Position numbers and translations under genes: made by a program. This document shows positions 26,410 through 61,195 of a stretch of DNA of 64,000 bases, one piece after another. The number at the start of each line of letters is the position of its first letter. The first letter of the stretch is position 1. Source of the stretch: Natrinema versiforme (GTDB taxonomy: Archaea > Halobacteriota > Halobacteria > Halobacteriales > Natrialbaceae); contig NZ_CP040330.1 in NCBI RefSeq assembly GCF_005576615.1, positions 434,001 through 498,000 of the forward strand, read 5' to 3'. The notes under the pieces are model-generated. The model was not told the DNA's origin, searched no databases, and worked only from the letters and a program-made list of their open reading frames with translations.

Positions 26410-27033
26410 TTAATAGCGTGAGAGGACGGCGTAGGTTCCACTGTGGTGCAGTGCGATCCCGGCTCCGAGGGCGGCGTACTCCCAGCCCTCGAGGAGGGGG
26501 ACGTACGGAATCGCCGCGGAGAGGGCCATGATCCACGCGCCACCGCCGATGAAGGCGTACCGATCGACGGCCCTGATATCGTACGCGGCGAGCAACTGGC
26601 CCATAAGGACGTAGCCGACGCCGACGACGGCCCCAGCCGAGACGAGCGCCAGACGGACCGCGTTCGTCGCGTCGAGGCTCTCGAAGACGGGCCGGAGCCC
26701 GACGAGCAAGACGCCGGTTCCAGCGAAGACGGCGAGTCCCCAACGGCGCTGATCCGGCACCCCTGTCGGCGGCCGGTAGTTCGATCTGACCCGTCGCTTC
26801 GCGAGTTCGCAGCCGGCGATCACGCCGGCGAACGCGACGGCGATCCACGGCCGGAACCCCTCGCGGAGCCAGAACTGGACGACGGCGAAGACGATCCCGG
26901 TACAGATCCCCTCGACGATCCAGAACCGCCACCAGTAGGGATGCTCCGACGCGAGCCCCATCGCTCCCTTGATCTCCTCGAGGTCGGTCCGGAGCGCGTC
27001 CGCGTCGACATCCTCGGATAGCTCTCGGCTCAT
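26410..27033 (-). CDS. Membrane protein in the ABC-transporter operon
   Basis: A 207-residue protein with a cytoplasmic acidic N-terminus (1-32) and about six hydrophobic helices. It ends two bases before the regulator gene and its ATG overlaps the stop of the ATPase gene (ATGA). Companion membrane proteins of this kind occur with wHTH regulators and ABC transporters in haloarchaea. Function unknown; it may be a sensor or an accessory subunit. Confidence 0.8.
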   Translation of the reverse strand: MSRELSEDVDADALRTDLEEIKGAMGLASEHPYWWRFWIVEGICTGIVFAVVQFWLREGFRPWIAVAFAGVIAGCELAKRRVRSNYRPPTGVPDQRRWGLAVFAGTGVLLVGLRPVFESLDATNAVRLALVSAGAVVGVGYVLMGQLLAAYDIRAVDRYAFIGGGAWIMALSAAIPYVPLLEGWEYAALGAGIALHHSGTYAVLSRY

Positions 27034-27953
27034 CGTGGATCGGCGGCGGTCGTGGTCGACTCACCGTTCGTGTAGTACGTAAAGAGGTCGGTGTAGGTCG
27101 GTTCGACGATCTCGAGGCCTGCCTGATCGATCCTCGCAGCGTCCGCGATCGCGTCGCGCATCGATCCGCTGTCCGCAGTGGCTTCTTCGTACCGCTGTGG
27201 GACGAAGCCGCGAACGTTCCCGGCCACCGCGAACGGGGCTCCGTCGACGGCGTCCGCGAGGGCGCTCGCGTTCGACGCGCTCGTCTCGAGGACGGGCGGG
27301 ACCGACGCCAACAGTTCGTCGGGCGGTCCCGTCGCGACGATCCGGCCGTCGGCGAGGAAGGCGATCCGATCGGCGATGTCCGCGTTCATCGGCCGGTGGC
27401 TGGCGACGACGATCGTCTTCCCCGCGTCGCGTTTCTCGCGAAACAGCTCGTGGATCGTCGGGATCGTCGCGAGATCCAGCGCCGCGGTCGGCTCGTCGAA
27501 CAGGTACAGCGGCGCGTCGATACTGGCGGCGATCGCGAACTCGAGTTTCCGGACCATCCCGCCCGAGTAGTCCGCGACGGGTTTCTCGAGGTCGTCGGCG
27601 ATCCCCAGCCGCTCGACGTGGTCGCGCCACTCGTCGGTGAACTGCGGGTGCAGCCGGCGGTAGAAATCGACGTTCTCGCGGCCGGTGAGATCCTCGAGTG
27701 CGAGCGCGTCCTGCAGGAGGAAACTCGTCGTGTCCGAGCGGGCCGTTGCCGGTTCGCCGAACACCTCGACGCTGCCCGCGGACGGCGTTTGGCTGCCGGC
27801 GAGACAGGAGAGCAACACCGACTTGCCGACGCCGTTTGGCCCCATCAGGACGAGGAGTTCTCCGTCCTCGACCGTGAGATCGACGTCATCGAGGACGCCC
27901 GCTTCGCCGAAGGACTTGCTGACACCGTTGGCGGTCGCGACCGGATCGCTCAC
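27030..27953 (-). CDS. ABC transporter ATP-binding protein
   Basis: A 307-residue ATPase. Walker A is MGPNGVGKSVLL (about residues 36-47), the signature is YSGGMVRKLEFA (a variant of LSGGQ), and Walker B is LYLFDEPTAALD, followed by the H-loop ASHRP. A C-terminal extension of about 80 residues (from about 225) has no clear match. The start is GTG at 27953, overlapping the permease stop by four bases. CcmA- or drug-exporter-like; substrate unknown. Confidence 0.9.
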   Translation of the reverse strand: MSDPVATANGVSKSFGEAGVLDDVDLTVEDGELLVLMGPNGVGKSVLLSCLAGSQTPSAGSVEVFGEPATARSDTTSFLLQDALALEDLTGRENVDFYRRLHPQFTDEWRDHVERLGIADDLEKPVADYSGGMVRKLEFAIAASIDAPLYLFDEPTAALDLATIPTIHELFREKRDAGKTIVVASHRPMNADIADRIAFLADGRIVATGPPDELLASVPPVLETSASNASALADAVDGAPFAVAGNVRGFVPQRYEEATADSGSMRDAIADAARIDQAGLEIVEPTYTDLFTYYTNGESTTTAADPR

Positions 27954-28807
27954 GGCAGCCACCCCTGATCGTAGAGCGTTCGGTTCACGAGCATCGTTCC
28001 GGCGACGATCGCGAGAACGGCGTACGCGGCGAGCAGTGCGAGAAACGCCGGCCCGGTCGGCATCGCGGGCGGCGCGACGCCGAGTTCGGTCCAGTTCTCG
28101 GCCGGGACGAGGTGGGAGACGAGCAGCCGTGTCGGGAGCGTGTTCGGGAGGACGTTCAGTACCGGCCCGTCGATCGGCGACTGTGCCGGTACGGTCCCGT
28201 TGAGCCCGGTGAGGACGAACCCTCCGACGGCGACAAGCGTGGTCGTCATCGATGCGACTCGCTCGTTGCCGGCGACGACGACGAACGGGATCGCGACGAC
28301 CATCCAGAACAGACAGGTCAACGCGCCGGCAGCGAGGGCGATCGGCACCGATTCGGGGCCGCGGAGCCCGTAGGACGCGCCGGTCGCCAGTCCGGCGGCG
28401 ATCGTCGCGGCGAACGCGCCCCCCGCGAGGACGAGCCCGGCGGCCATTCGGCCGGCCAGTTCGGCCGACGGGGCGATCGGCATCGAGCGATAGGCCACGT
28501 AGCGCCGGTCCTCGAGGTCGGTCGCGAGCTGATTCCCGAAGACGAAGAGACAGACGAACATCGACCCCAGAATCCCGATTCCGATGGAGACGGTTGCGTC
28601 GGACACGGCTGACCCATTGGTCCCCTGTGTCGTCTGGAGCAGGTACATGATCGCTGGGAACGCGATCACCCACGTCAGCATGAGCCAACTATTCCGGACC
28701 TCCCGGAGGCTCCGGCGAGCGAACGCACCGGCCTGCTCGAGCCAGACGCGCCGACCCCCGGTCGATCTCCGTTCGGTGCCGCGCATCTCTCGCGTATCGA
28801 TTGCCAT
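27950..28807 (-). CDS. ABC-2-type transporter permease
   Basis: A 285-residue protein with six hydrophobic helices after a basic N-terminal stretch (LEQAGAFARRSLREVRNSWL). The layout is that of ABC-2 exporters, with the conserved YRSMPIAPSAELAGRM loop. The start MAIDTREMRG at 28807 is chosen because the upstream in-frame extension runs through the operator and promoter. First gene of the operon permease-ATPase-membrane protein-regulator. Confidence 0.85.
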   Translation of the reverse strand: MAIDTREMRGTERRSTGGRRVWLEQAGAFARRSLREVRNSWLMLTWVIAFPAIMYLLQTTQGTNGSAVSDATVSIGIGILGSMFVCLFVFGNQLATDLEDRRYVAYRSMPIAPSAELAGRMAAGLVLAGGAFAATIAAGLATGASYGLRGPESVPIALAAGALTCLFWMVVAIPFVVVAGNERVASMTTTLVAVGGFVLTGLNGTVPAQSPIDGPVLNVLPNTLPTRLLVSHLVPAENWTELGVAPPAMPTGPAFLALLAAYAVLAIVAGTMLVNRTLYDQGWLP

Positions 28808-44110: not shown

Positions 44111-45190
44111 ATGACGGAAGCCTACGTCGCACTGGAAGGCGGTCACGTACTCGAGGGACGTGGCCGTGCAGAAGGGACGGCTCGCGGTGAACTCGTTTTC
44201 ACAACAGCGTATACCGGTTACGAGGAGAGTCTGACCGACCCCTCCTACGAGGAGCAGATCCTGACCTTCTCGTACCCGCTGATCGGCAACTACGGCGTCC
44301 GCGAGGAGCGGTTCGAGGACGACCGCGTCCACCCGCGTGCCGTGCTCGCGAAGGAACTCACCGAAGACGTCGTCGACTGGCTCGCAAGCGAGGGCGTCCC
44401 GGCCGTCGACCACCTCGACACGCGGGAGGTCGTCACCGACATCCGCGACGGCGGTGCGATGAAGTGCGGCATCGCCGTCGGCGAGGACGTCACCGAGGAC
44501 GACGCACTCGAGCAACTCGAGCAGTGCAAGGCCATGAGCGACCACACCGATATCGGCGCACAGGTCAGCGTCGACGAGCCCGAGGTCCACGGCGAGGACA
44601 ACGACGGCGAGACCGTCGCCTTGATCGACTGCGGCGCGAAGGGCTCGATCGTCGACTCGCTGCTCGCCCGCGACGCGACGGTCCACGTGTTCCCCTACGA
44701 CGCGAGCGTCGACGACGTCGAGGCCGTCAACCCTGACATCCTCTTTATCTCGAACGGCCCCGGCGACCCGGTCAACTTCGAGGGGGCGATCGGCCTCGTC
44801 GAGGCGTTCGTCGAGGACACGCCCGTCGCCGGCATCTGTCTCGGCCAGCAGATCGTCGCCGAGGCGCTCGGCGGCACCACCGAGAAGATGACCTTCGGCC
44901 ACCGCGGTGTCAACCAGCCCGTCCTCGACCTCGAGTCCGGGCAGGTCGTCATGACCACCCAGAACCACGGCTACACGGTCGCCGAGCCGGGTGAGCACCT
45001 CGAGGTCACCCAGATTAACGTCAACGACGACACGCCGGAAGGGATCGACGGCATCGAGTACGACGTGATCACCCGCCAGTACCACCCCGAAGCGAACCCC
45101 GGCCCCGAAGACACCCTCGACTTCTTCGACGACGTGCTCGCCATGGCTTCCGAGCGAGCGGACACGCAGGCGGTTCCCGCCGACGACTGA
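44111..45190 (+). CDS. carA: Carbamoyl-phosphate synthase small (glutaminase) subunit
   Basis: Releases ammonia from glutamine for carbamoyl phosphate, needed for arginine and pyrimidine synthesis. The 359-residue product has the N-terminal CarA domain (ELVFTTAYTGYEESLTDPSY) and the class I amidotransferase domain with C243 in PVAGICLGQQIVAEALGG and QYHPEANPGP. No carB follows here. Leader is only a few bases after the TATA-like box. Regulated by the adjacent Lrp protein, by inference. Confidence 0.95.
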   Translation: MTEAYVALEGGHVLEGRGRAEGTARGELVFTTAYTGYEESLTDPSYEEQILTFSYPLIGNYGVREERFEDDRVHPRAVLAKELTEDVVDWLASEGVPAVDHLDTREVVTDIRDGGAMKCGIAVGEDVTEDDALEQLEQCKAMSDHTDIGAQVSVDEPEVHGEDNDGETVALIDCGAKGSIVDSLLARDATVHVFPYDASVDDVEAVNPDILFISNGPGDPVNFEGAIGLVEAFVEDTPVAGICLGQQIVAEALGGTTEKMTFGHRGVNQPVLDLESGQVVMTTQNHGYTVAEPGEHLEVTQINVNDDTPEGIDGIEYDVITRQYHPEANPGPEDTLDFFDDVLAMASERADTQAVPADD

Positions 45191-45383: not shown

Positions 45384-46499
45384 TCAGAAGTCGCCAGTAA
45401 TGATGTTCGCGACGCGCTCGCGGTCGAACAGCGTCGCGTCCGCGAACGCGTCGGGGTAGATGTCTTTCGCGGCACGTTCGGTCTGGTAAAAGTTGATGAT
45501 CGGTCCCTGGTCGAGGTAGCCGCCGTTGTAGACGGCTCCGTCCTGGACCGCCGTCACTTCGCTCGCGGCGGGATCCTCCCGCAGCGGTTCGATGATCGAC
45601 TCCCGGAACGCCGACTCGGAGACGCCCTCCTGTCCGCGGACCAGTAGCACGTCGGGATCGACCTCGATGATCGTCTCGAGGTCGACCGTGCCGCCGTCGC
45701 CGGTGTAGTGGCCCACGTCGCTGGCCACGAGCGCGTCGGTCAGGCCGAGATCGCGCCACTGCTTGGTGCTGACCCCGCCGTCGTCGAACCGGTAGGGATG
45801 AAACTCCGTCGGCGGCAGGTCGGCCGGATAGACGAGCATCGCGTTCGGTCGCTCCTCGGCCGGCAGTCGCTCGTCGATCGTCGCGAGCATCTCGTCGTGG
45901 AGGTCGACGAACGCCTCGTAGCGCTCTCGTGCCTGAAAGACTTCGGCCATCAGTTCGAAGGCCTCGTAGAGGTCGTAGTACCGGTAGTCGTGCCACTCGT
46001 CGCTGCGTCGCCGGATGAAGTTGCCGAAGAAGGGACCAAGGGCCGTTTCGATCTCCTCGACGTCGGACTCGCTCCAGCCGTACCAGTTGAGCAACTGGTT
46101 CGGCTCCATGAAGTGGGCCTCGGCTTCCAGCTCGTAGAACAGTTCCTTATCGACGCCGTTGTCGTTTAGCTGCCGAACCGCGGACTCGTCGAACTCCACG
46201 CCCGGAAGCTCGTCGTAGGCCTCCGTCGCGTATCGATCGTGCCCCTGAATCCCGAGCGTCTGACCGCCGCCGAGTGCGAACCCCATGTCCGCGTAACTCG
46301 GCAGCAACGCGGTCCACTCCTCGGGCGGTTCGTCGAATTCGACGGCTCCCATCGGTTCCATCGAGACCGTGTACGGGCCGTCGCTCGAGTCGTTCGAGTC
46401 ACTGGGTCCGTCGTCACTGACACACCCCGCCAAGAGCGCGCCGCCGATAGCCGCTCCCGTCCCCACCAATTGCCGCCGCGTTGTCTCAGTCCGTCGCAT
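45384..46499 (-). CDS. TAT lipoprotein, iron/siderophore-type ABC substrate-binding protein (copy 1)
   Basis: A 371-residue protein. N-terminal MRRTETTRRQLVGTGAAIGG has a twin-arginine motif and ALLAGC (Cys26) as lipobox. A helical-backbone (TroA/BtuF/FecB-like) binding fold follows, with VEFDEPPEEWTALLPSYADM and VDPDVLLVRGQEG. No permease or ATPase is adjacent. The ATG at 46499 matches the paralog start; an in-frame ATG at 46508 would sit right at the predicted transcription start. Controlled by the palindrome at 46510-46527. Confidence 0.9.
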   Translation of the reverse strand: MRRTETTRRQLVGTGAAIGGALLAGCVSDDGPSDSNDSSDGPYTVSMEPMGAVEFDEPPEEWTALLPSYADMGFALGGGQTLGIQGHDRYATEAYDELPGVEFDESAVRQLNDNGVDKELFYELEAEAHFMEPNQLLNWYGWSESDVEEIETALGPFFGNFIRRRSDEWHDYRYYDLYEAFELMAEVFQARERYEAFVDLHDEMLATIDERLPAEERPNAMLVYPADLPPTEFHPYRFDDGGVSTKQWRDLGLTDALVASDVGHYTGDGGTVDLETIIEVDPDVLLVRGQEGVSESAFRESIIEPLREDPAASEVTAVQDGAVYNGGYLDQGPIINFYQTERAAKDIYPDAFADATLFDRERVANIITGDF

Positions 46500-46509
46500 A
46501 CCGACCATG

Positions 46510-46527
46510 TTTTAGGCTGGCCTAAAA
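46510..46527. promoter_or_regulatory. DtxR/Idr-type iron box of copy 1
   Basis: TTTTAGGC-TG-GCCTAAAA, a perfect 8+8 inverted repeat with core TTAGG-N4-CCTAA. It sits between a TATA-like GGTATAG (46529-46535, minus strand) and the start codon, so a bound repressor would block transcription. Resembles iron-regulator boxes of DtxR-family proteins. Confidence 0.75.
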
Positions 46528-46681
46528 ACTATACCGGTTCGGTTGGGCGTCGTTCAGCGGAATTGACGTGAAGAGTCGTCTCAGTTCCCGTACCGGTCCG
46601 ACTGCGATAGCGAACCGAGCATGAGGGTGACACCGGCGTCGGGTCGGCGATCGCGTTCGCAGTCCGCAATCCGCCCCGGTC

Positions 46682-47794
46682 TCAGAAGTCCCCGGTAACG
46701 ATGTTCGCGACGCGCTCGCGGTCGAACAGCGTCGCGTCCGCGAACGCGTCGGGATAGATGTCGTTCGCAGCGCGTTCGGTATGGTAGAAGTTGATGATCG
46801 GCCCCTGATCGAGGTAGCCGGCATTATAGACGGCCTCGTCTTGGACGGCTTGGACCTCGCTCGCGACTGGGTCGTCCTGTAACGGCTCGAGGACCGCTTC
46901 CTGAAACTCCGAGTCGGACTCACCGCCGTGATTGCGCACCAGCAACACCTCGGGATCGATGTCGAGGAGCGTCTCCAGATCGAGTGTCCCCCTATCGGTG
47001 TAGCTGTAGTGGCCCACGTCGGTCGCGGCGAGTGCATCCGTCAGTCCGAGATCGCGCCACTGTTTGGTACTGATCCCGCCGTCGTCGAATCGGAAGGGGA
47101 AGAACTCGAGGCCCGAGCCGCTGGCCGGGTAGAGGAGCATCGCGGTCGGTCGCTCCTCGGCCGGCGGCAGTCGCTCGTCGATCGTCGCGAGCATTTCGTC
47201 GTGGAGGGCGACGTACGCCTCGTAGCGCGCTCGTGCCTGGAAGACCTCGGCCATCAGCTCGAGGGCCTCGTAGAGGTCGTAGTAGCGGTAATCGTGCCAC
47301 TCGTCACTGTGGCGGCGAATGAAGTTGCCAAAGAAGGGCCCGATCTCGTCTCTTACTTTGTCGACATCGGACTGATCCCAATCGTACCAGTGTGTCAATA
47401 TGTGTGGGTCGATAAAATGGGCGTCGGCGTTCATCTCGTAGAACAGTTCCGTGTCGACGCCGCCTTCGGTCAGTTCCACGATGTCGTCCTCGTCGAACTC
47501 GATGCCGGGAAGTTCCTCGTACGCGTCGGTCCCGAACCGAGCGTGGTCCTGAATCCCGAGTGTCTGCCCGCCGCCGAGTGCAAACCCCATGTCCGCGTAC
47601 GTCGGCAGCAACGCGGTCCACTCCTCGGGCGGGCCGTCGAATTCGACCTCGCCCATCGGCGCGATCGAGACCGTGTACGTCTCGCCGCTCGAGGTGTCCG
47701 TACCGCCGCCGCTGATACACCCTGCGAGGAGCATCCCGCCGGTAACGGCCCCCGAACCGATGAATTGCCGCCGCGTCGTTTCGCTCGATCTCAT
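46682..47794 (-). CDS. TAT lipoprotein, iron/siderophore-type ABC substrate-binding protein (copy 2)
   Basis: A 370-residue paralog of copy 1 with the same order: MRSSETTRRQFIGSGAVTGG, MLLAGC lipobox (Cys26), and the binding domain. The 3' end shares a run of over 50 identical bases with copy 1 (around 45402 and 46700), suggesting recent duplication or gene conversion. Copies 1 and 2 differ most in ligand-facing central loops, so ligands may differ. Preceded by a perfect 20-bp iron box. Confidence 0.9.
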   Translation of the reverse strand: MRSSETTRRQFIGSGAVTGGMLLAGCISGGGTDTSSGETYTVSIAPMGEVEFDGPPEEWTALLPTYADMGFALGGGQTLGIQDHARFGTDAYEELPGIEFDEDDIVELTEGGVDTELFYEMNADAHFIDPHILTHWYDWDQSDVDKVRDEIGPFFGNFIRRHSDEWHDYRYYDLYEALELMAEVFQARARYEAYVALHDEMLATIDERLPPAEERPTAMLLYPASGSGLEFFPFRFDDGGISTKQWRDLGLTDALAATDVGHYSYTDRGTLDLETLLDIDPEVLLVRNHGGESDSEFQEAVLEPLQDDPVASEVQAVQDEAVYNAGYLDQGPIINFYHTERAANDIYPDAFADATLFDRERVANIVTGDF

Positions 47795-47804
47795 CGCCTT
47801 CAGA

Positions 47805-47824
47805 TTTTTAGGCCGGCCTAAAAA
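47805..47824. promoter_or_regulatory. Perfect 20-bp DtxR/Idr-type iron box of copy 2
   Basis: TTTTTAGGCCGGCCTAAAAA, fully self-complementary, 10 bases upstream of the ATG. A TATA-like GATATTG (minus strand, 47825-47831) abuts it. Confidence 0.78.
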
Positions 47825-47900
47825 CAATATCGGTTGCTCGGTCGTTGCGCCGATCGGCGTCCAACCCTGTGTCGCCGCCGTCGGAACCGTCGTCAGTCAG

Positions 47901-49078
47901 CTACGCTCCGTCGGTGACGATCTCGGTCACGCGCTCGCGGTCGAACAATCGTTCGTCCTCGGGTATCTCGGGGTAGGACTCGCCGTCCTCGTAGCCGGGC
48001 CACTCGCCGAACTGCTCGGGGTAGAGCTGCTTGGCCGTCATCTCGAGTTGGAACAGGTTCATGATCGGACCCTGATACCGCATGCCGCTGGCAACGACCC
48101 GGTCGTTCTCGACCGCGGTCAGGTCGCTGCCCGCGGGGTGGGACGCCAGTCGCTCGCGAATGTCGTCGATGGCGTACTGCGACGTGATCCCCCAGATGTG
48201 GAGGATCACGTCGGGATCGGCCTCGAGCATCGTTTCGTAGCCGATGTTGCCCCAGTCGTCGTCCGGCCAGTCGATGTCTTCGAGCGCGTCGTGTGCGCCA
48301 AGCGGTCGCGTTTCGGCCTGCCAGAAGCCGGGCGTGTTGAGGTGGTAGGTGTAGAAGACGCCGTCCCCGAGCGTGACCCGCGCGACCGTGGGCCGTTCGC
48401 TCTCGGGGGGCAGGTTCGACTCGATGTGTGATCGGGTCTCCTCGTAGACCTCGTTGAGTGCCTCGTACCGCTCCGCTTCCTGAAAGACGGCCGCGACCTT
48501 CTCGAAGAGTTCCCAGAGCGTGTAGTACTCGTAGCTGTCCGCGTAGGCCTCGGCCGGCTCGCTGTGCACGCCGCTGTGGTAGCTGCCGATCCACGGGCCG
48601 ACCGTCTCGGTGATCTCGTCGATGTCTCCCTCGCTCCAGTCGGGCTGGGTCGTCAGAACGTAGGAGGGATCGAGGAAGTGAACGTCGCTCTCCGCGTTGT
48701 AGACTGTTCTTTCGTCACGCCGCCGTCGAGCGGGTTCTCGAGGCCTTCCCACTCGAACTCGCTGACGCCCTCGAGCCGGTCGTAGAACTTGTTCATCGTG
48801 GTCCCCGACATCTCCGGGGCGAAGAGCGTCTGGACCGCGTCGCCGTGGCCGAGCGCGACCGCCATGTCGGCGTACTGCGTGAACGTGACGAAGGCGTTCT
48901 CCGGGACGCTGTCGAACTCGACATCGCCCATCGGTGCCATCGACACCGTATACGAGTCTCCCACCCCCGAGTCGTCGCCGGTTCCGTCGAGACAGCCGGC
49001 CAGCGCCGCGCTCCCGACTGCGACTCCCGTTCCGAGGAATCCCCGTCGCGTTCGATCGAACTGCTGCGGTCTGTCCAT
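47901..49078 (-). pseudogene. Third TAT-lipoprotein substrate-binding paralog, frameshifted
   Basis: The first part (49078 to about 48715) encodes MDRPQQFDRTRRGFLGTGVA, a lipobox AALAGC (Cys29) and the N-terminal lobe up to LDGGVTKE. The rest continues in another frame from VYNAESDVHFLDPSYVLTTQ to VTEIVTDGA. Joining the two at about 48700-48720 needs one extra base, so a single-base deletion has occurred, or a sequence error. The C-terminal frame is intact and conserved, which argues that the lesion is recent or artefactual. Confidence 0.82.
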
Positions 49079-49083
49079 ACGCT

Positions 49084-49131
49084 TTAGGCTCCCCTAACAA
49101 TTCAAAAAGCGTTCGGTTTAGGCCGGCCAAA
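49084..49131. promoter_or_regulatory. Iron-box-like site and a degenerate second site before copy 3
   Basis: TTAGG-CTCC-CCTAA (49084-49097) sits five bases before the ATG and matches the boxes of copies 1 and 2 in the 5+4+5 layout. TTAGGCCGGCCAAA (49118-49131) keeps only one good half and is 34 bp away. Together with the other two promoters they define a common regulon. Confidence 0.65.
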
Positions 49132-49188: not shown

Positions 49189-49935
49189 TCACTCGGCGAA
49201 CGCGTACGTCACCGTCGCGCTGGCACTCACGCTGACCGGGTCCGCCTCGATCTCCGTGGGTGGTGCCGCGCCGTCGGCCGCGTCGCCGCTGGTGACGCTC
49301 TCCTGTACCGGCCGGACCTGTACGTCGCCAGTCGTTACCGCCGTCGTCCCCTCGAGTGAGATCTCGCGGTTATCGGCGATGTGGGACGCCTCTTCGTCGG
49401 CGTTTGCGAGCGCGGCGTCGATCGCGTCTTTCCGCAGCGCCGATCGCGTCTCCTCCTGGAGCGTAAAGCTCACCCGGCCGATATCGTCGGCACCGGCCTC
49501 GATCGACGCGTCGATGACCTCGCCGACGCGGTCGACGTCGGTGACCGTCACCTCGAAGGAGTGGGATCCCTCGAATCCCTCCGCGTCTCGCCCGCGTCTC
49601 GGGTGAACCCGGTAGCGTCCTTCCTCGATGTTCTCCTCGGGGATGCCGAGTTCGTCGAACGTCCCGCGAAGCCGCTCGGCACCCGTCGCCAGTTCGTCGG
49701 TTACGGCGTCGGCGCTCTCGCCCGTGGCCTGCACACCGACGCTGACGATCGCCCGGTCCGGGTCCGCGTCGACCTCGCCGCTCGCGCTGACTGTGATTTC
49801 GCCGGCGGCCGCGTTCGTGGCGGCGTCCGAGTCCGGTTCCGCGGAGTCGTTACTACTGAGAGGGTTGCCCGCACAACCCGCGATCGCCGCTGTCAGGCCG
49901 ATACTCGAGGCCGCGAGGAACTGTCGTCGATCCAT
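49189..49935 (-). CDS. SIMPL (DUF541) domain lipoprotein
   Basis: A 248-residue secreted protein. TAT/lipoprotein leader MDRRQFLAASSIGLTAAIAG with Cys21, an acidic linker, then the SIMPL domain: EITVSASGEVDADPDRAIVS (the usual start), GIPEENIEEGRYRVHPRRGR and a C-terminal SVSASATVTYAFAE strand. SIMPL proteins form ring-like assemblies in bacteria; role unclear in haloarchaea. Confidence 0.88.
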   Translation of the reverse strand: MDRRQFLAASSIGLTAAIAGCAGNPLSSNDSAEPDSDAATNAAAGEITVSASGEVDADPDRAIVSVGVQATGESADAVTDELATGAERLRGTFDELGIPEENIEEGRYRVHPRRGRDAEGFEGSHSFEVTVTDVDRVGEVIDASIEAGADDIGRVSFTLQEETRSALRKDAIDAALANADEEASHIADNREISLEGTTAVTTGDVQVRPVQESVTSGDAADGAAPPTEIEADPVSVSASATVTYAFAE

Positions 49936-50076: not shown

Positions 50077-51078
50077 ATGGACGGAACCGTCGAACCCGCG
50101 GCCGAGATCGATGCCGTCGAGAGCGTCGACGAACTGATCGGCGAGACGCCCCTGATTCGATTGGACGGCTTCGCCGACAACTGCTTCGGAAAGATCGAGT
50201 CGCACAACCCCTACTCGGTCAAGGACCGCATCGCGCGGGCGATCCTCGACGCCGCCGAGGAAGACGGCGCGCTCGAGCCCGGCGGCACCGTCGTCGAATC
50301 GACCAGCGGCAACACGGGGATCGGGCTGGCGGCCGTCGCCGCCGCGCGCGGCTACGACTGCGTGCTGACGATGCCGTCCTCGATGTCGACGGAGCGCCGG
50401 CAACTCCTGCAGGCGTTAGGGGTCGACCTCGAGTTGACACCCGCCGAGGACGGGATGGGCGGCGCGAACGAGCGTGCCGCGGAACTCGCCGCCGACCGGG
50501 AGGATGCGATCTTGGCCCGGCAGTTCGAGAACGAGGCCAACCCCGCGGCCCACCGGGAGACGACGGGACCGGAGATCTGGGCGGCGACCGACGGCCGAGT
50601 CGACGCGGTCGTCGCGGGCGTCGGCACCGGCGGGACGATCACCGGCATTTCGGAGTACGTCAAAGAGGAGCGGGGAAAGAGCGAGTTCACGTCGGTCGCG
50701 GTCGAACCGGCCGAGTCGCCGACCCTCTCGACTCTCAGCACCGCGGGCCACGATATCCAGGGGATCGGCCCCGGCTTCGTTCCGGACATCCTCCGGACCG
50801 ATCTCGTCGACGAGACCCCCGCCGTCGAGGCTGCCGAAGCGAAACGCGCGGCCCGAAAACTGGCCCGCGACGACGGGCTGCTGGTCGGCATTTCCTCGGG
50901 TGCCGCACTGGCTGCCGCCGCCGACTACGCGACTGACCACCCGGACGAACTGACCGTCGTCGTCTCCCCGACACCGGTGAACGCTACCTCTCGACTGACC
51001 TCTACGACCTCGAGTAGCCCGGCGAGTAGTCAGTCTGTTCGGAGCCACCGCCGCCGCCAAACCTCTCGACGGCAGTGA
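50077..51078 (+). CDS. cysK: Cysteine synthase (PLP-dependent), C-terminus frameshifted
   Basis: Makes L-cysteine from O-acetylserine and sulfide. SVKDRIARAIL carries the PLP lysine, ESTSGNTGIGLAAVAAARGY is the substrate loop, AGVGTGGTITGIS binds phosphate and GISSGAALAA ends the core. After DELTVVV the frame turns into a Ser/Thr/Arg-rich tail. The expected ending PDTGERYLSTDLYDLE then stop (51015) is intact in another frame, so one C is missing near 50966-50975. Start MDGTVEPAAEIDAV at 50077. Confidence 0.88.
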   Translation: MDGTVEPAAEIDAVESVDELIGETPLIRLDGFADNCFGKIESHNPYSVKDRIARAILDAAEEDGALEPGGTVVESTSGNTGIGLAAVAAARGYDCVLTMPSSMSTERRQLLQALGVDLELTPAEDGMGGANERAAELAADREDAILARQFENEANPAAHRETTGPEIWAATDGRVDAVVAGVGTGGTITGISEYVKEERGKSEFTSVAVEPAESPTLSTLSTAGHDIQGIGPGFVPDILRTDLVDETPAVEAAEAKRAARKLARDDGLLVGISSGAALAAAADYATDHPDELTVVVSPTPVNATSRLTSTTSSSPASSQSVRSHRRRQTSRRQ

Positions 51079-55199: not shown

Positions 55200-57128
55200 G
55201 TGAGTTCCCACGAGGACGAAACGCCGTTCGACGCCTACCGGGAGGACGTCGATCGGCCGCTCTCGAGGCTGTTTCGCGAGTACGCGCCCGGTCGACTCGG
55301 CTGGTTTTCGGCGGGGATGGTCGCCAACTTCGTCGCTCGGATGGCGAGTCTGGTCCCGCCGCTGCTGCTGGGGACCGCCATCGACGCGATCTTTACCGGC
55401 AACGGCGCGTTCGAGTTGCCGATCGTGCCGAACGCGTGGCTGCCGACCGCACAGATGGCCCAGTTCTGGTTCTCCATCACCGCCATTGCCGTCTCGTTTC
55501 TTGTCGTCGCCCTCTTCACGTGGATCTACGGCGTCACCGCCAACCTGTTCGCCCACGGCGTGATGCACGCGGTCCGGGTCGATTCCTTCGAGAAAATGCA
55601 ACGGCTGGACATGACCTTCTTCGACGACAAGGAGACCGGCGAGGTCATGGCGGTGCTGAACAACGATACCCAGAACCTCGAGATGTTTCTGGACAACGCC
55701 CTGATGAACTCCGCGCGGCTGCTGGTGATGGTCGGCGGGATCGCCGGCGTCCTCTTCTATCTCAACTGGCAGTTGGCGCTCATCACCCTCGTCGCGATCC
55801 CCGCGATGGTCGGCTTTACGATCTGGTTCATGCGCGCCGTCGAGCCTCGGTACGCTCGCCAACGCTCCGCGGTCGGGTGGCTCAACACCCGCCTCGAGAA
55901 CAGCCTCTCCGGCGTCGGCCTGACGAAGACGACCAACAGCGAGAGCTACGAGATCGACCGCGTCCGGCAGGCCTCGCGCCGACTCTACGAGGATACGATG
56001 GCCGTGCTCCGGCTCTCGTACTTCTACCGGCCCGGCATGGAACTGCTCGCCGGACTGGCCTTCGCCGGAACCTTCCTCGTCGGGGGGCTCTGGCTCGCGA
56101 CGGGGACCGCACCCGGCCCGCTCACCGGCTCCCTCTCGGTCGGCGACTTCGTCGTCTTCCTCTTCATGACCCAGCGGATCGTCGCCCCGCTCGCCGAGGT
56201 GTCGAACATCGTCGACCAGTACGAGAACGCCAAGGCCTCGAGCGAGCGCGTCTTCGGCCTGATGGACATCCCGGTCCACGTCGCGGACCCGGCCGACCCG
56301 ACGGCCATCGAACCCGTCGAGGGCCGCGTCGAGTACGAGGACATCACTTTCGGGTACGACACGAGTGCCGCACGGAGCGCTGACGGCGACGATGTGACGG
56401 CGTTCGAAGAGCCCGTTCTCGAGGACATCTCCTTCGAGGCCGAACCGGGCGAAACGGTCGCGTTCGTCGGCCCGACGGGGGCCGGGAAATCGACGCTACT
56501 CAAACTCCTGCTCCGGCTCTACGACGTCCGAGCGGGATCGATCCGGATCGACGGCCACGACGTTCGGGACGTGGCCCTCGCCGACCTCCGCTCGGCAGTC
56601 GGCTACGTGAGTCAGGACACGTTCCTCTTCGACGGCACCGTCGCCGATAACGTCCGCTACGGTCACTTCGACGCGTCCGACGAGGCCGTTCGAGAGGCCG
56701 CGAAAGCCGCTCGAGCCCACGAGTTCATCACCGACCTCTCGGCGGGCTACGAGACCCGCGTCGGCGAGGAGGGGGTCAAGCTCTCGGGCGGCCAACGCCA
56801 GCGGATCGCGCTCGCCCGCGCCGTCCTCACCGACCCCGCGGTGTTGATCCTCGACGAGGCGACCAGCGCCGTCGACACCAAGACCGAACTGCAGATTCAG
56901 CGCTCGATCGACCGGCTCACAGAAGATCGAACGACGCTCGTCATCGCCCACCGCCTCTCGACGATCCGGGACGCCGATACCATCCTCGTGCTCGAGGACG
57001 GCGAAATCGTCGAGCGGGGAACCCACGAGGCGTTACTCGAGGCCGGCGGCGAGTACGCGACGCTGTGGACGGCCCAAGCCGGCGACCGCGAGGCGGCGGC
57101 CGACGCGCTGGTCGACGGGACCGACTGA
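55200..57128 (+). CDS. ABC exporter, fused permease and ATPase
   Basis: A 642-residue half-transporter of the MsbA/LmrA type. Six transmembrane helices lie in about 30-350 (GTAIDAIFTGNGAFELPIVP is extracellular). The ATPase follows: Walker A FVGPTGAGKSTLLKLLLR near 425, signature LSGGQRQRIALARAVL near 540, Walker B VLILDEATSAVD. Likely a homodimeric lipid or drug exporter. It starts with GTG at 55200. Confidence 0.93.
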   Translation: MSSHEDETPFDAYREDVDRPLSRLFREYAPGRLGWFSAGMVANFVARMASLVPPLLLGTAIDAIFTGNGAFELPIVPNAWLPTAQMAQFWFSITAIAVSFLVVALFTWIYGVTANLFAHGVMHAVRVDSFEKMQRLDMTFFDDKETGEVMAVLNNDTQNLEMFLDNALMNSARLLVMVGGIAGVLFYLNWQLALITLVAIPAMVGFTIWFMRAVEPRYARQRSAVGWLNTRLENSLSGVGLTKTTNSESYEIDRVRQASRRLYEDTMAVLRLSYFYRPGMELLAGLAFAGTFLVGGLWLATGTAPGPLTGSLSVGDFVVFLFMTQRIVAPLAEVSNIVDQYENAKASSERVFGLMDIPVHVADPADPTAIEPVEGRVEYEDITFGYDTSAARSADGDDVTAFEEPVLEDISFEAEPGETVAFVGPTGAGKSTLLKLLLRLYDVRAGSIRIDGHDVRDVALADLRSAVGYVSQDTFLFDGTVADNVRYGHFDASDEAVREAAKAARAHEFITDLSAGYETRVGEEGVKLSGGQRQRIALARAVLTDPAVLILDEATSAVDTKTELQIQRSIDRLTEDRTTLVIAHRLSTIRDADTILVLEDGEIVERGTHEALLEAGGEYATLWTAQAGDREAAADALVDGTD

Positions 57129-57818: not shown

Positions 57819-59174
57819 ATGACAAGCGGCAACATCACTGACACTGAACAGGCGGTATTGGACGAGATCGAGGAACAAGACGTCGACTTCCTCCGACTGC
57901 AGTTTACCGACATTCTGGGAACGGTCAAGAACGTCTCCGTACCGGCCCGGCAGGCCGAGAAGGCGTTCACCGAAGGCATCTACTTCGACGGTTCTTCTAT
58001 CGAAGGCTTCGTTCGCATTCAGGAGTCGGACATGCGGCTCAAGCCCGACCCGGACACCTTCGCAGTGCTCCCGTGGCGCCAGAAAGAGGAGAGCGCCGCC
58101 GCCCGAATGATCTGTGACGTCTACGATACGTCCACGGGCGAGCCCTTCGAGGGCGACCCGCGCCGCGTGCTCAAGAACGCGCTCGATCGCGCCGACGAGA
58201 TGGGCTATACTGTCAACGCCGCGCCCGAGCCGGAGTTCTTCCTCTTCGAGGAGGACGAGGACGGCCGCGCGACGACCAAGACCAACGACGCCGGCGGCTA
58301 CTTCGACCTCGCGCCGAAAGACCTCGCCAGCGACGTTCGCCGCGACATCATCTACGGTCTCGAGGAGATGGGCTTCGAGATCGAGGCTAGCCACCACGAG
58401 GTCGCCGAGGGCCAACACGAGATCAACTTCACCTACGACGACGCGCTCGCGACGGCCGACAACGTCGGCACGTTCCGCACCGTCGTCCGCGCCATCGCCG
58501 CCCAGCACGACCTGCACGCGACGTTCATGCCCAAGCCGATCCCGCGAATCAACGGCTCGGGGATGCACACGCACCTCTCGCTGTTCACCGAGGACGGCGA
58601 GAACGCGTTCCACGACGAGGACGACGAGTTCAATCTGAGCGACGAGGCCCACGCCTTTACGGCCGGGATCCTCGAGCACGCGCCGGCGATCACGGCGATC
58701 GCGAACCCCACGGTCAACAGCTACAAGCGACTGGTGCCCGGCTACGAGGCACCCGTCTACGTCGCGTGGTCCGACCGCAACCGCTCGGCACTGATCCGCA
58801 AACCGGCGGCTCGCACGCCGGCCGCCTCCCGCGTCGAACTCCGTTCGCCCGACCCGTCCTGTAACGCCTACCTCGCGCTCGCCGCCATGATCCACGCGGG
58901 TCTCGACGGCATCGAGAACGATCTCGAGTGTCCCGACCCGGTCCGGGAGAACATCTACGAATTCGACGAGGAGAAACGCGAAGAGTACGGCATCGACACG
59001 CTGCCGTCGAACCTCGGCGAGGCCGTCGAGGCTCTCGAGGAGGACGAAGTCATCTACGACGCGCTCGGCGACCACGTCGCGCCGAAGTTCGTCGAAGCCA
59101 AAGAACAGGAGTTCGAGGACTACCTCGTCGACGTTTCCGACTGGGAACTCGACCGCTACCTCGAGACGTTCTAA
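57819..59174 (+). CDS. glnA: Glutamine synthetase, type I
   Basis: Assimilates ammonium: glutamate + NH3 + ATP to glutamine. The 451-residue product is the GSI-alpha size. Family segments are [19 protein letters not shown] near 49, [13 protein letters not shown] near 135, [11 protein letters not shown] near 245, [20 protein letters not shown] near 300 and the C-terminal [20 protein letters not shown]. The [20 protein letters not shown] start is haloarchaeal. Controlled by the divergent Lrp protein, by inference. Confidence 0.96.
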
Positions 59175-59216
59175 GCCGATAGCCGCCACCGGGCGGTTCC
59201 GATATTTTTCTCTCTG

Positions 59217-59861
59217 TCAGTTGTCACTCGACAGGTCGTGTTCGTGGCCCTCGAGCGCCAGCGTTTCGGGATCGAGCGTGTAGTATCGCTCCCACGCTGG
59301 GGCGAGACTGACGACGCGAGTGCCGGCGATCTCGGCCTCGCGGTGGCGATGGTGATGGCCGACCAGACAGAGGTCGGGCGAGATCGCCTCGAGCAGGTCG
59401 TCGATATACTCACAGCCGGGATCGTAGCCGTAGGACAGCAGGCCGTTCGGTGCTTCGTGCGTGAGAAAGATGTCGATGTCCTCGAGGGCGGCGGCCCGTT
59501 CCACGTCCTCGTGAGTGAAGTGACGGCGGCGCTCGCCCGTGAGTTCGTCCCGGGACAGGTCATACTTCGTCGGGGCGAAGTTCCCCGAGAGACCGCCCAC
59601 GCGCAGGCCGTCGACCGTCGCCGCCGTGCTCGCGAGGAGGTGGACGTTAGACGTTGTTTCGAGATCGTCGCCCGCCCGCAGCGCCTCGATCACGTCGAAC
59701 TCCTCGTTGTTCCCCGCGATGAACCACGTCGGTGCCGGCAGGTCGTATCGCTCGAGGTCGCCGAGCTGGAGCACCCGATCGGGCTCGAGGGTTCGGTAGA
59801 GCTCGAGTAGGGTGTCACACCGGTCAGAGTCGGACGCGTGGGCGTCGCCGAGGACGAGCAT
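59217..59861 (-). CDS. Metallophosphoesterase (YfcE/MJ0936-like)
   Basis: A 214-residue calcineurin-like phosphoesterase. Motifs are MLVLGDAHASDSD (GDxH), VLQLGDLERYD (GDxx), FIAGNNEEFD (GNxE), and LTHEAPNG with GHHHRHREAEIAG (the two His). Substrate unknown; relatives hydrolyse phosphodiesters. Start MLVLGDAHASDSDR at 59861. Confidence 0.9.
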   Translation of the reverse strand: MLVLGDAHASDSDRCDTLLELYRTLEPDRVLQLGDLERYDLPAPTWFIAGNNEEFDVIEALRAGDDLETTSNVHLLASTAATVDGLRVGGLSGNFAPTKYDLSRDELTGERRRHFTHEDVERAAALEDIDIFLTHEAPNGLLSYGYDPGCEYIDDLLEAISPDLCLVGHHHRHREAEIAGTRVVSLAPAWERYYTLDPETLALEGHEHDLSSDN

Positions 59862-60017
59862 GGGTGCACGTAGGAACCCGATCCGGATAGTGTCCGCGCC
59901 GGACCCCGCCGGATCGGTCGGTTTCGATCGCGAGGGGTGGTCGCTGCCGTGTCGACCGAGCCGCGACCGACACATTCAGGGTCGTGATTTAGATGTGCCG
60001 CCCTCGGAGTCCCCGCT

Positions 60018-60287
60018 ATGGCCGACACGCCAGATATCAATACAGTCGAAACGGAAGACGACTACACGCACGTCCGGTTTCGCGATCCCGATCGGTACGA
60101 CGAGATACGAACCCCGGATTGGGCGGAGCAGCCGGCGGAGTCGGTCTCCGAGGGCAGCGAGGTCCGCACCGGGAAGGTCGAAGGAGAAGACGACTGGGAA
60201 GTCACCAGCGTCCTGATCGAGAAACACGTCGGCGAGGACAAAGCGAAAGAGCAGGCCCGCGAAATCGTTGACAAGATCGAGTCCTGA
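60018..60287 (+). CDS. Conserved haloarchaeal hypothetical protein
   Basis: An 89-residue acidic protein (MADTPDINTVETEDDYTHVR, then VRTGKVEGEDDWEVTSVLIE, then KAKEQAREIVDKIES). Short beta-strands are followed by a C-terminal helix. It is abundant in haloarchaea and lacks a known function. Convergent with the coiled-coil gene. Confidence 0.7.
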   Translation: MADTPDINTVETEDDYTHVRFRDPDRYDEIRTPDWAEQPAESVSEGSEVRTGKVEGEDDWEVTSVLIEKHVGEDKAKEQAREIVDKIES

Positions 60288-60349
60288 TCGGCGTCCGATT
60301 GACCTCCGATCGTCTCGGCCCCTCGAACCGAAACTCGCCGTGATCCGGC

Positions 60350-61195
60350 TTACGCTTCGGCCTGCTCGATCCAGTCCTCGGCCTGCTCCTCCGAGATATC
60401 GGCGGCCTCGGCGACGGCCTCGGGACCGGCGCGCGTGAGGTCGTCGATCGTCGCGATACCGGCCTCCGAGAGCTGGTCGCGGATGTCGGCGTCGATTCCC
60501 TCGACCGACTCGAGGGTGTGCTCCGGATCGGTTTCGATCTTCGTGTGCGGTTCGTCAGTCCCCTGTACCGGGATCTCCTGGGTGACCGCCTCCGCCTGCT
60601 CCTCGAGTTGCTGCTGGAACCGTTCGACCTGTTCGGCCTGCCGTTCGAGGAGCTCCTCGACGTCACCGGTCTGGCGCTCGAGTTGGTCCTCGAGTTGATC
60701 CTGCAGCTCCTGGGTCTGGTCGAGTTGCTCGCGGAGCTGCCCCGAGAGTTCGTCGACGTTCTGGACCGTCTGGTCCTCGACGGCCTCCGTGATCTCGAGG
60801 AGCTGGGCTGTCTGTTCGTCGAGGGTATCGACGAACTCCCCCGAGAGCTCGTCGGCGGAGTCGACGCCCCGCTCGAGTTCTCGCTCGAGCGCCTCGTAAA
60901 CCTCCGCGTGAGTCGTTTTCAGCTGCTCGAAGGTCTCGTCGATGGTTCGGTGGGCCTCGGGAGCGTCGTCGCTCGGCAGCATCGCCGCCGTCGCGCTGAG
61001 GTAGCCGTGCGTCGCCGCCTGCGCGAGCTCGAGTTGCTGGCGCTGAAGGGACTCCTGGCCTTTGAGCCCGGTCAGGGCCATCGTGTCGACGTTTCGTTGG
61101 GTGGCCATTCCCTGCTTGAACAGCTGCTGGCTCTGTTTGACTGCGGTTCGCTGGACGTCGAACATCGCACGGATCGGGGATTCTGACTGGCTCAT
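60350..61195 (-). CDS. Coiled-coil protein with C-terminal helix-hairpin-helix
   Basis: A 281-residue protein. The first 60 residues (FDVQRTAVKQSQQLFKQGMA) look phasin-like. A long coiled coil rich in E, Q and L runs to about 205. The last 60 residues carry a helix-hairpin-helix domain (SVEGIDADIRDQLSEAGIAT, IDDLTRAGPEAVAEAADISE) of the type in DNA-binding or Rad51-like proteins. It could coat polyhydroxyalkanoate granules or organise DNA; neither is shown. Confidence 0.78.
   Translation of the reverse strand: MSQSESPIRAMFDVQRTAVKQSQQLFKQGMATQRNVDTMALTGLKGQESLQRQQLELAQAATHGYLSATAAMLPSDDAPEAHRTIDETFEQLKTTHAEVYEALERELERGVDSADELSGEFVDTLDEQTAQLLEITEAVEDQTVQNVDELSGQLREQLDQTQELQDQLEDQLERQTGDVEELLERQAEQVERFQQQLEEQAEAVTQEIPVQGTDEPHTKIETDPEHTLESVEGIDADIRDQLSEAGIATIDDLTRAGPEAVAEAADISEEQAEDWIEQAEA

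Follow-up and report, generated by a model that had tools for sequence, protein, structure and literature searches.

Three tandem genes on the minus strand of a haloarchaeal Natrinema genome (4.67 Mb), lying within a 64,000-nucleotide stretch (C2:434001-498000, here called the window), encode predicted binding proteins, and the box TTAGG-N4-CCTAA stands just ahead of each. It can be said with high confidence that the three products are lipid-anchored FhuD-like binders exported by the twin-arginine translocation (Tat) pathway, that each gene has an iron-responsive promoter of its own under DtxR-type repression, and that the binders share importers encoded elsewhere.

Binding proteins and their boxed promoters

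Copy 1 (45384..46508, minus strand), assigned from its open reading frame (ORF), its PF01497 match and an AlphaFold model, is a FhuD-like class III substrate-binding Tat-lipoprotein of 374 amino acids (aa) when read from the first ATG, with an alternative start at 46499. Copy 2 (46682..47791, minus strand) is a class III substrate-binding Tat-lipoprotein of 369 aa from its ATG, identified from its ORF and PF01497 match. Copy 3 (47901..49078, minus strand) belongs to the PF01497 family and is frameshifted, with the N-terminal part in one frame (48653-49078) and the C-terminal part in another (47901-48728). The first-pass annotation, which described three tandem binder genes, was right that all encode Tat-lipoprotein binders but missed this frameshift. 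Scores against PF01497 (Peripla_BP_2) are 53.0, 42.0 and 42.7 bits for copies 1, 2 and 3 (curated cut-off 27.5), and the translations of all three carry a twin-arginine motif and a LAGC lipobox (TTRRQLVGTGAAIGGALLAGC, TTRRQFIGSGAVTGGMLLAGC, RTRRGFLGTGVAVGSAALAGC), the motif and the lipobox cysteine being retained by nearly all homologues. Copy 1 shares 72% identity with copy 2, and copy 3 shares ∼37-40% with either.

The two-lobed class III fold was found in the AlphaFold models of both copy 1 and an intact orthologue of copy 3 (predicted local distance difference test scores of 87 and 85.5, respectively). Structures that these models match include PiaA, FeuA, CeuE, HtsA, FhuD2 and the ferric schizokinen complex of YfiY, and comparison of the copy 1 model with HtsA, YclQ, FhuD2 and others gave Z values of ∼19-21 over 260-290 aligned residues at 3.0-3.8 Å; a profile search of the PDB returned the same group of siderophore binders. 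Each lobe has one glutamate (E122 and E278 in copy 1 numbering) that does not vary among 47 homologues and that falls, in the alignment, on the xLEkll..PD motif of solved binders, which carries the docking glutamates of FeuA-type proteins. From what is known of BtuF and FeuA we take these residues to dock the binder on its permease, and since both are invariant the orphan binders look competent to do so. The three proteins very probably catch iron carriers (siderophores) at the cell surface, a ferric siderophore being the presumed ligand of the lipoproteins.

Exact 14-bp TTAGG-N4-CCTAA cores occur three times in the window against 0.01 expected by chance, and none of 100 shuffled sequences reached three. 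Box 1 (TTAGGCTGGCCTAA, 46512..46525) stops 3 bp short of the first copy 1 ATG, box 2 (TTAGGCCGGCCTAA, 47808..47821) 13 bp short of the copy 2 start and box 3 (TTAGGCTCCCCTAA, 49084..49097) 5 bp short of the copy 3 ATG, which bears out the earlier claim of a box before each gene. Copy 3 has in addition a degenerate second box with one mismatch (TTAGGCCGGCCAAA, 49118..49131), 34 bp from box 3, and between the two lie a TATA-like GCTTTTTGAA and a BRE-like (TFB-recognition element) CGAACG (49101..49115, minus strand) that may form its promoter. Comparable elements can be read just upstream of the other boxes, namely a putative TATAG with BRE-like CCGAACCGG for copy 1 (46529..46542, minus strand) and a putative GATATTG with BRE-like GCAACC for copy 2 (47825..47837, minus strand). 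Allowing two mismatches, a search of the window found five boxes against 5.15 expected, with no separation from noise. TTAGG and CCTAAA show no variation upstream of the copy-3 orthologues of 19 Natrinema genomes, all ten half-site bases being kept in 19/19, while the four spacer columns of box 3 vary (majority base 42-74%), so the copy-3 boxes are under constraint. The CGAAC and TTTT between the boxes are likewise invariant in these genomes, as would be expected of a BRE and a TATA box.

The box across genome and family

The 14-bp core is not scattered at random, a check suggested by the first-pass annotation: exact matches number 17 genome-wide against three for a control in which the box pattern was reversed, and most of the 17 sites lie 0-13 bp before the start codons of iron genes or form doublets preceding them. 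Besides the three genes of the window, boxed genes include a FecCD permease followed by its ATPase (C2:3526349), a binder (C2:3528553) and a frameshifted FecCD permease (C2:846107), and doublets precede a FecCD region on C4 (FecCD at 331 kb), a run of five binders also on C4 (at 329 kb) and a siderophore cluster (C2:3614842/3614878). This cluster contains a diaminobutyrate transaminase gene (NCBIfam 730 bits, cut-off 671), and the inner genes of what is a dat/bdb/iuc-type arrangement, assigned by reading their translations, encode decarboxylase-like, acetyltransferase-like and hydroxylase-like proteins and two IucA/IucC-like synthetases; the siderophore cluster of Haloferax volcanii has the same layout (PMC7407949). 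When one mismatch was permitted the signal was swamped, with 30 boxes in the genome against 68 for the control.

Among 81 Natrialbaceae genomes, 925 exact boxes were counted against 120 control matches, and the box outnumbered its control in 77 of the 81. Most orthologous binders across haloarchaeal genera keep a box 20-50 bp upstream, and it stands before most relatives in Haloferax, Halorubrum, Haloarcula, Natrialba, Haladaptatus, Halopiger and others; the preferred spacer is C(T/C)(A/G)G. Because the boxed genes are FecCD permeases, binders and a siderophore cluster, because the box is enriched and because DtxR-family genes exist in the genome (see below), the reading of TTAGG-N4-CCTAA as a predicted DtxR-type iron box, already put forward by the first-pass annotation, is well supported.

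The least expected detail of the analysis is that boxes paired around the TATA region keep a fixed pitch. Exact doublets number 193 in 125 genomes of the family against none for the control, and they mostly flank the TATA region; in 60 listed doublets that were tabulated the pitch is 36 bp in 37 and 34-36 bp in 52. As 34-36 bp corresponds to ∼3.4 helical turns, the two boxes would face roughly opposite sides of the helix. A possible but doubtful explanation is that at many iron promoters, that of copy 3 included, two dimers clamp the TBP/TFB site enclosed between boxes 34-36 bp apart. Such a clamp would set double-box promoters apart from the single-box promoters of copies 1 and 2 and would give graded iron thresholds to neighbouring binders that differ in specificity. 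G036, G063, G073, G081 and G104 contain doublets of a second, shorter class, in which the pitch is 26-28 bp, roughly one helical turn less than in the 36-bp class; as a mark of a small gene linked to dps these failed in four genomes, and they do not mark dps either.

Further sites were noted in the genome. At C4:322052-329171 (L045:5873-13382) a single double box precedes a run of genes for five binders, a short DtxR-family protein and an FAD (flavin adenine dinucleotide) oxidoreductase. Boxes were also considered as marks of dps itself, but this was rejected, as the doublet at C2:2249 kb and the box at C4:321760 point to ORFs of ∼55 aa beside dps, and the C2 dps gene has only a one-mismatch site upstream of it. 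These two ORFs, directly behind their boxes and adjoining dps (L045:5584-5751, minus strand; L050:3093-3263, plus strand), are weakly similar to DUF7331 and may encode small iron-regulated proteins. Two other boxes, at C2:3675298 and C2:3742755, are located 123 and 208 bp before DUF7551/DUF7552 and DUF7090 (KaiC-like) genes, respectively.

Copy 3, transport partners and locus history

Relative to its intact orthologue in G027/N. versiforme, copy 3 lacks one base at ∼48704, and the orthologue is unbroken at every further Natrinema locus that was examined apart from L094, where the gene carries a frameshift of its own. A cysteine synthase gene 2 kb from copy 3 (∼50118-51010, plus strand) also lacks one base relative to G027, at ∼50964 near its 3′ end, leaving the final residues in the wrong frame, which points to assembly errors or to a second young mutation near copy 3. 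Elsewhere the boxed FecCD permease gene at C2:846243-847077 (L048), full-length (∼370 aa) in other Natrinema, is split into two frames. Given the similar deletion in the cysteine synthase gene and the frameshifted FecCD gene, sequencing error is a live explanation for the break in copy 3, and in view of the former no biological cause is claimed for it. Over an aligned ∼30 kb, most frame-breaking indels are concentrated in short stretches, which on account of this clustering look intergenic. A siderophore-type binder gene at C2:3530271-3530855 (L046:6756-7982) contains one in-frame TGA.

These broken genes could be taken to mean that the tandem array consists of decaying leftovers, with copy 3 already a pseudogene and the others redundant. 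The copy 3 frameshift, the in-frame TGA of the C2:3530 kb binder, the FecCD frameshift at C2:846 kb and a degraded copy-2 remnant in L098 would all agree with decay, but neither copy 1 nor copy 2 is broken, the boxes and motifs of both are conserved, and the cysteine synthase deletion hints that errors in the assembly are involved, so that decay is an unlikely account of the array.

Binders of this type are numerous in the genome, which encodes 12 PF01497 proteins, ten of them siderophore-type and arranged in three clusters; two are unboxed (C2:2132497, beside a FecCD gene, and C2:521832). There are three boxed FecCD permeases, one of them frameshifted, and a single close FhuC-type ATPase (C2:3527478), all outside the window; the next-best FhuC-like ATPase is 41% identical and lies beside a BtuF-like gene. 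Neither a FecCD permease nor a FhuC-type ATPase was found in C2:434001-498000, which thus holds no complete FhuBCD locus. The earlier statement that the window has no permease or ATPase stands for FecCD and FhuC but fails as worded, as two other ATP-binding cassette (ABC) ATPases are present (ORFs 27030-28688, minus strand, and 55200-57128, plus strand). A hand count over 29 Natrinema genomes, in which split genes were scored once, gave 192 PF01497 proteins against 79 FecCD permeases, so as a rule binders outnumber importers in the genus. The related suggestion of one shared transporter, for which binders with different ligands may compete, needs a similar adjustment, in that sharing is plausible, with a single close FhuC, but three boxed FecCD permeases do not amount to one transporter.

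The array is flanked by carA (44111-45190, plus strand) and a SIMPL-like gene (49189-49935, minus strand), and the synteny of the SIMPL gene, copy 3 and carA is kept through most of the genus. Across the 29 Natrinema genomes copy 3 usually stands by itself; it is joined by copy 2 in G001 and G027 and by copy 1 in G002 and G028, and the full 3+2+1 arrangement occurs only in the present genome. The closest named relatives of copy 2 are in Natrinema versiforme (95%) and N. altunense (90%). Recent duplication of copy 1 and copy 2 was ruled out, as their mutual identity of 72% is lower than that of copy 1 to its G002 counterpart (84%) and of copy 2 to its G027 counterpart (95%). At the L107/L108 junction (G027:C22, ∼59000-60650) a transposase-like ORF lies between carA and copy 2, occupying the spot where the present genome has copy 1. 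In L098 copy 2 is reduced to a degraded fragment. Gain and loss of binders between carA and the SIMPL gene are ongoing.

Regulation and known systems

The other check suggested by the first-pass annotation, for a DtxR-family gene, returned four (Fe_dep_repress; C2:1590442, C2:2599348, C3:285724 and C4:322052), encoding proteins of 226, 144, 239 and 118 aa, respectively; the first has an additional C-terminal domain, the third is encoded next to an ABC-3-like permease and the gene for the last lies downstream of the C4 binders. One of these candidates presumably reads the boxes. The genes, boxes, conserved promoter layout, enrichment, constraint and association with iron genes are direct results, and from them we infer the following mechanism. 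In iron-replete cells, a DtxR-family homodimer loaded with Fe(II) would sit on each TTAGG-N4-CCTAA box, beside the TATA/BRE elements and over the transcription start, and so keep TBP/TFB or RNA polymerase off. When iron runs short the repressor would leave, and the binders, FecCD, FhuC and the siderophore-synthesis operon would be made together. The binders would then pick up ferric siderophores on the outer side of the membrane and use the conserved glutamate of each lobe to dock on FecCD/FhuC importers that are encoded at other loci and shared by them in trans.

Because the boxes abut or overlap the stretch from TATA to start, where archaeal repressor sites usually lie, it is quite improbable that they serve instead as activator sites or as dual activator/repressor sites. 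Such a role would have parallels in Halobacterium Idr1 and Idr2, described as a joint iron network in work cited in PMC11349517, and in the DtxR of C. glutamicum, called a dual regulator in the title of PMC1382209. That the boxes are read by a regulator for another metal (Mn/Zn-type MntR/TroR), with binders carrying that metal, haem or cobalamin, is very unlikely: the best NCBIfam matches of the DtxR-family genes are MntR-type models (all below cut-off), one such gene adjoins the ABC-3-like permease and PF01497 also includes cobalamin and haem binders, but DtxR-family names leave the metal unfixed, the box precedes a siderophore-biosynthesis cluster and three FecCD permeases, siderophore binders predominate among the nearest solved structures, and the BtuF-like protein (C2:2132497) is accompanied by a FecCD of its own and has no exact box.

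Several points weigh against DtxR-type iron repression as set out here. Copy 3 is frameshifted, and the boxes at C2:1628862, C2:3675298 and C2:3742755 do not precede any clear iron gene. Any of the four DtxR-family proteins may be the one that binds, and in Hfx. volcanii three such proteins are involved. The 19-bp TTAGG-N9-CCTAA geometry of DtxR/IdeR sites was not found, the archaeal spacer being 4 bp, whereas 9 bp separate the outer half-sites of the 19-bp corynebacterial site. 

The analysis assigns three unlinked-looking binders to the Natrinema iron-uptake regulon and yields a box that predicts iron genes across Natrialbaceae. With single- and double-box promoters side by side, the locus offers a compact set for studying the core-promoter geometry of archaeal DtxR-family regulators, and copies 1, 2 and 3, with the same predicted partner transporters, form a set for asking why haloarchaea keep more binders than importers.

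The lipoproteins FeuA, PiaA, HtsA, FhuD2 and YfiY share with the present proteins the class III fold (model residues 41-374) and the aligned lobe glutamates, but identity is 11-20%, and the proteins described here are acidic and halophilic with a Tat signal. The Corynebacterium DtxR box has the 19-bp consensus TTAGGTTAG(G/C)CTAACCTAA (PMC1382209). Its half-sites are likewise TTAGG/CCTAA, and its C variant starts with 14 bases, TTAGGTTAGCCTAA, that are identical to the archaeal box at C2:3614842; archaeal boxes that form pairs are 34-36 bp apart and do not overlap.

The closest parallel is Hfx. volcanii, in which 11 FhuD-type binders and two permeases all lie behind a predicted DtxR-family signal, and iron starvation raised expression of five of the 11 fhuD paralogues 4.5-8 fold (PMC11349517). 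Leyn and Rodionov (2015) predicted this signal, which PMC11349517 ties to all fhu genes of that organism; the boxes described here probably represent the same motif. TroR is named as the primary regulator in Hfx. volcanii in the title of a 2024 paper cited in PMC11834397. The two systems have in common many binders and few permeases, one predicted signal and a siderophore cluster in the genome. The basic arrangement is therefore already described in Hfx. volcanii, and the Natrinema locus is a further case of such a regulon, distinguished by tandem binders with individual boxes, one of them frameshifted, located far from any permease.

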